The position numbers were made by a program, and so were the translations under genes. From NCBI RefSeq assembly GCF_030719295.1, contig NZ_CP120997.1, positions 2,728,001 to 2,792,000 on the forward strand: 64,000 nt of DNA. The letters are read 5' to 3'. The DNA comes from Streptomyces sp. Mut1. GTDB lineage: Bacteria > Actinomycetota > Actinomycetes > Streptomycetales > Streptomycetaceae. Numbering within the stretch: position 1 is the stretch's first letter; each line of letters starts with the position of its first letter. Positions 3,110 through 37,755 of this stretch are shown here, in pieces. A model generated the notes under the pieces. It was given only the letters and a program-made list of their open reading frames with translations. It made no database searches and was not told the DNA's origin.

Positions 3110-3166
3110 GGCGTGGGCTCCTGTCGAAGCGGAGTGGTGGCGGTGGGCGTGGGGCGCGCGGCTCTG

Positions 3167-3217
3167 CCCCCGCGCGGGGGTCGGTGCGTGGTGTGTGGCG
3201 CCCGGCCGGGCGGCGCC
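3167..3217 (-). promoter_or_regulatory. Two hairpins between leader peptide and cysO (attenuator candidate)
   Basis: On the minus strand, immediately after the leader stop, come GGCGCC arms (3212-3217 with 3197-3202) around a CCCGGCCGGG core, then CCCCC-GCGC-GGGGG (3167-3180). They lie 58-108 bases upstream of the cysO start. With the Cys-containing leader they could form a translation-dependent attenuator or a structure that hides the cysO start. The pairing alternatives are inferred, not folded. Confidence 0.45.
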
Positions 3218-3227
3218 GGGACCGGGC

Positions 3228-3353
3228 TCAGGCCTCGCGGCCGGCTGACCGGTGGTTCGTACAGATGGCGCTGGAGAGGCGGCACAGGTCGACGTGCAGG
3301 CGCGCCACGAGCAGCGTGCCCGGCGTCTTGTCACTCACGTCATGGGGAACCAT
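3228..3353 (-). CDS. Cysteine leader peptide of cysO-cysM (41 aa)
   Basis: 41 codons. The core LHVDLCRLSSAIC matches the short actinobacterial leader-peptide pattern (R-x-H-x-D-L-x-R-x-x-S-A-x-C) usually found ahead of sulfur-assimilation genes. The two cysteine codons sit 10 codons apart. In mycobacteria such leaders attenuate downstream cysteine genes when Cys-tRNA is scarce or abundant; that this one does so is inference. No Shine-Dalgarno precedes ATG 3353, but a TACGAT -10 hexamer ends 6 bases before it, so the peptide may be translated from a leaderless mRNA. A GTG at 3338 in the same frame is an alternative start. It lies between mec and cysO. Confidence 0.72.
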   Translation of the reverse strand: MVPHDVSDKTPGTLLVARLHVDLCRLSSAICTNHRSAGREA

Positions 3354-37680: not shown

Positions 37681-37755
37681 GACCGTGTGCCCGAGAGGCT
37701 CAGGGGCTCGACTGCAACTCGAGTTACACCGGTTCGAATCCGGTCACGGTCTCCA
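37681..37755 (+). tRNA. tRNA-Cys (GCA)
   Basis: A full cloverleaf is visible. The acceptor stem GACCGTG pairs with CACGGTC. The D arm has CCC/GGG. The anticodon stem CTCGA/TCGAG encloses loop CTGCAAC with anticodon GCA. The T arm ACCGG/CCGGT has loop TTCGAAT. The discriminator is T, as expected for tRNA-Cys, and the CCA end is encoded. A strong terminator follows. Confidence 0.96.

Follow-up and report, generated by a model that had tools for sequence, protein, structure and literature searches.

Results

A leader reading frame stands between mec and cysO

What, if anything, does the short open reading frame ahead of the sulfur-carrier gene cysO of Streptomyces sp. Mut1 sense, and which of its features would carry the signal? 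The locus lies in a 64,000-nucleotide stretch of contig NZ_CP120997.1 (hereafter the window, meaning the whole stretch that was analysed), for which the original prediction had proposed a 41-codon frame between mec and cysO, with two Cys codons in a conserved core, acting as a leader peptide. Both the frame and the two codons are present on the minus strand (Table 1). Along the direction of transcription the genes run from an amino-acid permease through a mec-like peptidase, the leader, cysO and cysM to a metallo-beta-lactamase-fold protein, with cysM and the end of cysO sharing a single base (2831). We take cysO and mec to be the appropriate names on the basis of family and gene order; the profiles themselves report the ThiS family and Prok-JAB.

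Table 1 Features of the cysO leader locus, listed in the direction of transcription
Feature	Position	Strand	Evidence or remark
mec-like JAB-domain peptidase	3918-3487	minus	PF14464, 102 bits; upstream of leader
Dyad-like element GTGAGATCACAC	3401-3390 (-48 to -37 of leader start)	minus	ATCACA at the same offset in 70/80 loci
-10 box TACGAT	3365-3360	minus	would make the transcript leaderless, beginning at the leader ATG; TACGAT-N6-ATG in 81/81 loci
Leader ORF	3353-3228	minus	41 codons plus TGA stop; NF042934 putative leader peptide
Leader start and stop	ATG 3353-3351, TGA 3230-3228	minus	read from the window sequence
Conserved core RLHVDLCRLSSAIC	3261..3302	minus	codon usage tabulated in 81 loci; residues 13-31 matched by NF042934
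First Cys codon TGC (residue 24)	3284-3282	minus	TGC in 80/81 cysO leaders
Terminal Cys codon TGT (residue 31), proposed sensor codon	3263-3261	minus	TGT in 81/81 cysO leaders
Untranslated spacer, 118 nt, C-rich and G-poor	3110..3227	minus	possible Rho loading region; contains the cysO SD AGGAG; C-G skew 0.287
cysO, sulfur-carrier protein (ThiS family)	3109-2831	minus	PF02597, 62.5 bits; own SD
cysM, cysteine synthase	2831-1881	minus	TIGR01136, 366 bits; PF00291
Metallo-beta-lactamase-fold protein	1516-764	minus	downstream of cysM

The encoded 41-residue peptide, MVPHDVSDKTPGTLLVARLHVDLCRLSSAICTNHRSAGREA, matches the whole 19-position profile NF042934 (cis_reg_atten, ‘putative leader peptide’) with 37.1 bits (E = 1.7e-9; curated cut-off 27 bits), while its scores with NF042933 and NF042936, at 15.1 and 16.4 bits, fall below the cut-off of 45 that applies to both. 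A protein search with the leader returned 215 matches and, among the 120 listed, many are named ‘putative leader peptide’ by NCBI. The peptide family is already known and annotated, and the leader is a member of it. A short frame upstream of a sulfur-metabolism operon is typical of the NF042934 family, and the leader is placed in this manner, 118 nt before cysO in a cysO-cysM pair identified by profiles. Because of the strength of the profile match and the presence of the frame in every related cysO locus described below, we regard it as more than a chance reading frame.

A search for the peptide in other Streptomyces, suggested together with the prediction, placed it ahead of cysO in all of 80 related loci (79 titled Streptomyces, and L047 Kitasatospora), which were gathered by cysO similarity and represent the best 80 of 523 confirmed stretches. 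In three of them (L024, L050 and L066) the leader has 57 codons and a longer segment between start and core, with the core and the terminal TGT kept. Extending the comparison to 16 other Streptomycetaceae genera recovered the leader in 20/20 loci, 17 of which have TGT at the terminal Cys position and three a stop exactly there. Among the 30 best cysO matches of a class-wide draw of 118 genomes, the leader was found in 8/8 Streptomyces loci (one being the window's own) and in none of the 22 non-Streptomyces loci, and a looser expression that did not require Cys gave the same result. In those 22 loci the end of mec falls anywhere from 260 nt before the cysO start to 4 nt past it, and in 17 of them within 110 nt; mec was detected in 63 of the 81 Streptomyces-type loci, in 57 of these at 260-410 nt before cysO (detection was by motif search, so that a miss is not proof of absence, and cysO starts are approximate). 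Streptomycetaceae have the leader, which lies between cysO and its partner peptidase gene; none of the 22 other class loci that were read showed it.

As to whether mec belongs to the same unit, 14 of the 80 loci carry ahead of the leader an ORF with the same tail as that of L009, which by eye reads as an ABC-type ATPase, and the leader is still beside cysO. That the leader stays with cysO where an ABC-type ORF replaces mec, and that it has a promoter-like box of its own, agrees with the earlier proposal that mec is left outside the control. A tRNA-Cys gene with anticodon GCA also lies in the window (37681-37755, plus strand), whose product would read the leader Cys codons; its presence there is probably a coincidence. 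A scan of the window with Rfam at gathering thresholds matched the tRNA alone.

The leader transcript likely starts at the ATG

The original prediction had described the frame as lacking a Shine-Dalgarno sequence and as preceded, six bases before its ATG, by TACGAT. Both features recur across the set: TACGAT, six bases and ATG are found in 81/81 loci including the window, and of the 80 loci scanned none has an SD-like sequence ahead of the leader ATG, as opposed to 81/81 for cysO. In the S. lividans transcript map, the mean distance from -10 to start is 6.3 nt and 17% of transcripts are leaderless (PMC8079986); a leaderless start of the leader transcript is therefore likely.

Across the wider family, TANNNT lies 4-9 nt before an in-frame ATG or GTG in 61/119 leaders, compared with 79/2380 for an equal number of random starts, a matched control that replaced an earlier, unmatched one with two random starts per locus (20/595). 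The remaining 58 of the 119 family leaders have no TANNNT at leaderless spacing. No -35 consensus is present at the leader, the corresponding place (3388-3383) reading CCGAAT, and the conserved GTGAGATCACAC element further upstream is possibly an activator site of the cysO leader. By eye, TTGAC was seen upstream of four other leaders of the Mut1 genome (L002, L003, L004 and L191).

The terminal Cys codon follows a codon rule

The two Cys codons of the core differ in their usage. In the 81 cysO leaders the terminal Cys is invariably encoded by TGT and the first by TGC in all cases but one, whereas TGT makes up 6-9% of Cys codons in neighbouring genes, among them 60 of 1023 in the long GC3-rich ORFs of the window and the 80 loci. 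The same preference extends to the family at large, for which 119 of 122 loci were parsed (the others being L139, which has TGT, L177 and L195) and thinned to 110 unique leaders: the terminal codon is TGT in 107, TGC in two (L185 and L201) and GGG in one (L193). TGT is thus used by 107 of the 109 that have Cys at this place, while the other Cys codons within the same leaders are TGC in 128 cases and TGT in 28. The presence of a terminal Cys is partly built into these figures, as the model ends on Cys and the parser favoured it; the preference for TGT over TGC is unaffected by this. The family searches contributed loci for at most the 30 best matches each, and a narrow expression missed 21 of 63 family loci, 19 of which were read separately.

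At class level the leaders show 72 TGT and 2 TGC, versus 19 TGT and 187 TGC (19/206) in the downstream ORFs (Fisher p = 4e-46, p-values here ignoring relatedness), and all 28 loci from 22 genera of the class have the terminal TGT. In a set already restricted to TGT, third bases vary at the core residues while the T of TGT is constant; therefore, the core appears to be held at the peptide level and its last codon at the codon level. What is new is this codon use at the terminal Cys and not the leader itself. The leader-peptide reading of the original prediction is supported in part, by family membership, the leaderless-start features and the link to sulfur genes, and is refined in that its two Cys codons are not equivalent, the terminal one being nearly always the rare TGT and the first following ordinary usage. 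A literature search returned no paper recognisable as describing the cysO leader or the TGT rule, a weak negative given that subscription papers lay mostly outside its reach.

Two simple causes of the rule were considered and rejected. Pairing of a leader CUGU with the ACAGG of the cysO SD fails as a general cause, both because L052 and L070 have an SD of the AAAAGGAG type and yet TGT, and because TGT also occurs in leaders of unrelated operons. Cysteine generally has a single kind of tRNA-Cys. Selective tRNA charging requires, in the theory as set out in the part consulted, several isoacceptors (PMC1183508), and the tRNA-Cys found in a scan of the window is GCA. Separately, the Arg codon after the first Cys (CGC at 3281-3279 in the window) is the rare AGG in 51/81 cysO loci versus 233/5842 background Arg codons; AGG there would extend a CUGCAC/GUGCAG stem.

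Some cysO leaders replace the terminal Cys

An invariant terminal TGT is ruled out by the two TGC and one GGG among the unique family leaders and by eleven cysO leaders without terminal Cys, which came from a targeted search and are cases rather than a rate (L246/L255, L252/L253 and L250/L270 are the same places and were counted once). All eleven keep HVDLCR or HLDLCR. Five stop at the terminal-Cys codon (TAG, TAG, TGA, TGA and TGA; L246, L250, L252, L254 and L278), and six read GGG, GGC or AGG there, for Gly or Arg (L266-L269, L275 and L276). A search of 394 Streptomycetaceae genomes for an HVDLC-type core gave no genome with TGC as the terminal codon and three with TRR (two TGA, one TAG). 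Among 297 genomes, the terminal TGT form matched in 211 and a form left free at codon 11 in 219; the latter pattern, which leaves out cores whose codon 10 ends in T, added nine matches, eight in further genomes and one a second match within a genome. A follow-up of 25 genomes yielded 16 matches in 12 of them: ten TGT, two stops, two Gly or Arg, and two that were no leaders (L272 and L281).

These variants bear on the idea that the leader is an arrest peptide, its HVDLxR nascent chain sensing a small molecule (cysteine, sulfide or another thiol) in the manner of TnaC, with the next codon only slow and Cys-tRNA charging not the signal. A peptide conserved through synonymous variation fits this idea, as do the five cysO leaders that stop at the terminal codon with the core kept, an arrangement resembling the stop-codon arrest of TnaC. 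However, Cys occupies the place in 109 of the 110 unique family leaders, which is better explained by codon reading even if the figure is partly built in, and six leaders have Gly or Arg there. We consider a pure arrest peptide unlikely.

The RNA after the stop is C-rich and G-poor

The stretch that follows the leader stop has a consistent base composition. Its mean C-G skew is 0.269 in the 81 cysO leaders (positive in 81/81), compared with 0.097 in 261 other 5' regions of the same loci; the corresponding values are 0.224 for 109 family leaders and 0.059 for 71 other 5' regions, and the 27 5' regions of the window average 0.016. Such a spacer favours a Rho-loading region, C-richness alone being no proof of one. 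No terminator-like site was found between 2800 and 3500, nor was a classical trp-type terminator hairpin with a U run.

The original prediction had placed GC-rich hairpins directly after the stop and read them as an attenuator. Hairpins do form there in the predicted fold, but their role as an attenuator was rejected: the post-stop stretch folds no better than shuffles (z = +1.13, with 180/200 shuffles at least as stable), no well-supported hairpin or unusual fold stability was found, and an alignment of 22 of the 81 loci shows a single covarying pair out of 39, with a covariation term of 0.1. The same data speak against translational attenuation acting alone, in which the cysO ribosome site would be paired with leader RNA or spacer until freed by a stalled ribosome, with no early end of transcription. 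Translational attenuation is the mode named for the cysteine genes of M. smegmatis in the part of that work consulted (PMC13236596), and a simulated ribosome stall raised the predicted access of the cysO SD by over 0.1 in 21/80 loci and lowered it in one; the mean moved only from 0.20 to 0.25, and a general SD switch is not supported by the folding. We regard this alternative, a branch that the reading proposed below itself leaves open, as a fair one, though less than probable.

Other members of the family often precede sulfur-related genes

The Mut1 genome contains six NF042934-family matches, and the five outside cysO lie ahead of ORFs with matches to cysteine dioxygenase, a family-5 solute-binding protein, flavin reductase, nitrite/sulfite reductase and rhodanese. 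In 31 genomes the family matches number 3 to 13 each, an indication that a Streptomyces genome contains a set of several cysteine-linked leaders. Twenty downstream ORFs, chosen to cover different leader types, were scanned with an ORF picker that skips short genes such as cysO and may miss the first gene. They also include sulfatase, PAPS reductase (twice), APS kinase, DUF4395, luciferase-like monooxygenase (twice), CbiX, TauE/SafE, NMT1-like and transporter components and a second cysteine dioxygenase, along with ROK-type, GST-like and dicarboxylate symporter ORFs that have no evident sulfur link. The terminal-TGT leader L002 of the Mut1 genome stands before cysteine dioxygenase, a catabolic gene for which the opposite response would be expected.

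Discussion

A cysteine-responsive attenuator is the best reading

Taken together, our analysis points with moderate confidence to cysteine-responsive, ribosome-mediated attenuation of cysO-cysM, the mode being probably Rho-dependent or translational. According to this scheme, a leaderless transcript would begin at the leader ATG, allowing a ribosome to load at once and make the peptide. When Cys-tRNA is scarce, the ribosome would be held at the terminal UGU, wobble-read by tRNA-Cys(GCA), with the conserved RxHVDLxR in the exit tunnel, and the parked ribosome would shield the end of the leader and the adjacent C-rich RNA, so that cysO-cysM are expressed. With ample cysteine it would finish and depart, leaving the C-rich spacer bare, and expression would be cut, most likely by Rho and otherwise through a hidden cysO ribosome site, with mec outside. 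The UGU adjoins the stop codon in 33/81 cysO leaders; stalled and terminating ribosomes would therefore occupy nearly the same place, and dwell time rather than position must carry the signal. Of this scheme, the sequences themselves establish the frame and its conservation, the -10 spacing, the codon rule, the C-rich spacer and the gene order, whereas leaderless transcription, stalling, the cysteine response and the Rho step are deduced from them.

Several observations count against this attenuation scheme. There are only two Cys codons and no run; eleven cysO leaders have no terminal Cys; one family member precedes cysteine dioxygenase, where induction by shortage makes little sense, and others have no sulfur link; and nearly half of the family leaders, as counted above, lack TANNNT at leaderless spacing. 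A further alternative is that the ORF senses nothing, its leaderless start and short peptide merely coupling or tuning translation. The loss of the terminal Cys in eleven cysO leaders is in keeping with this, as is the fact that all the functional steps of attenuation are deduced from sequence, but without a link to cysteine it is difficult to account for the codon rule or for how often sulfur genes lie downstream, and we judge such a passive role very improbable.

Within the attenuation scheme, we tentatively suggest that the actinomycete leaders could be dual sensors, in which a fixed nascent peptide (RxHVDLxR and a few residues) primes the ribosome to wait at a UGU that is wobble-read by the tRNA-Cys also serving UGC; those cysO leaders that have a stop at this place might then be derived, slow termination having taken over from slow decoding. 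If so, a synonymous exchange of UGU for UGC would switch off regulation, an effect that selective isoacceptor charging cannot explain because cysteine generally has one isoacceptor, in line with the one tRNA-Cys(GCA) in the window. The codon-level signature tells apart two Cys codons of a single 14-residue core, and leaders of 22 genera of the class conform to it, so the old question of why attenuation leaders prefer certain synonymous codons becomes a one-base test in a single-tRNA case.

Comparison with known leader peptides

The window leader is a full member of NF042934, a protein model that cannot hold the TGT rule and whose name does not point to a mechanism. Poly-cysteine leaderless short ORFs of mycobacteria were reportedly described by Canestrari et al. 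in 2020. The cysO leader shares with them the sulfur genes downstream and would also share the leaderless arrangement, predicted here from the -10 box and the missing SD; the models of mycobacterial Ms5788A and Ms4527A match the window peptide weakly (15.1 and 16.4 bits), and a VDLCR-type core is shared in family loci. The mycobacterial ORFs differ in having a Cys run, in place of two separated Cys codons (residues 24 and 31) in a fixed core. In the mycobacterial attenuators, RNA structure hides the downstream ribosome site, an arrangement that was not recovered at the cysO leader by folding, shuffles or the 22-locus alignment.

TnaC of E. coli is a conserved leader peptide under Rho-dependent control, in which the stalled ribosome masks a Rho site beside the stop. 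The cysO leader resembles it through its conserved peptide and proposed Rho step; TnaC differs in sensing tryptophan, no evidence for a free ligand having been found at the cysO leader. Candidate cys leader peptides with Cys runs were reported for Mycobacterium, Propionibacterium and Bifidobacterium by Seliverstov et al. 2005 (PMC1262725); like the leader described here they stand before cys genes without a visible terminator, and Rho was proposed there too, but they contain Cys runs, and the cysteine passage of that paper names no Streptomyces. The uORFC-8-2 that precedes cysS in Rhodobacterales (PMC8632094) is likewise a Cys-codon leader for a cysteine-related gene. Its Cys codons are in tandem and predominantly UGC, the opposite codon choice, and its expression platform is a different one, an intrinsic terminator. 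For S. lividans TK24, the portion consulted lists eight attenuators, none of them for cysteine (PMC8079986); the metL leader before metNIQ in its Table 4 ends in CMCRRMCAF, with three Cys, and its methionine-dependent assignment could be revisited. Set beside these systems, the cysO leader is a variant of the known cysteine-leader kind, distinguished from a poly-Cys ORF by its fixed core and by a single preferred sensor codon.
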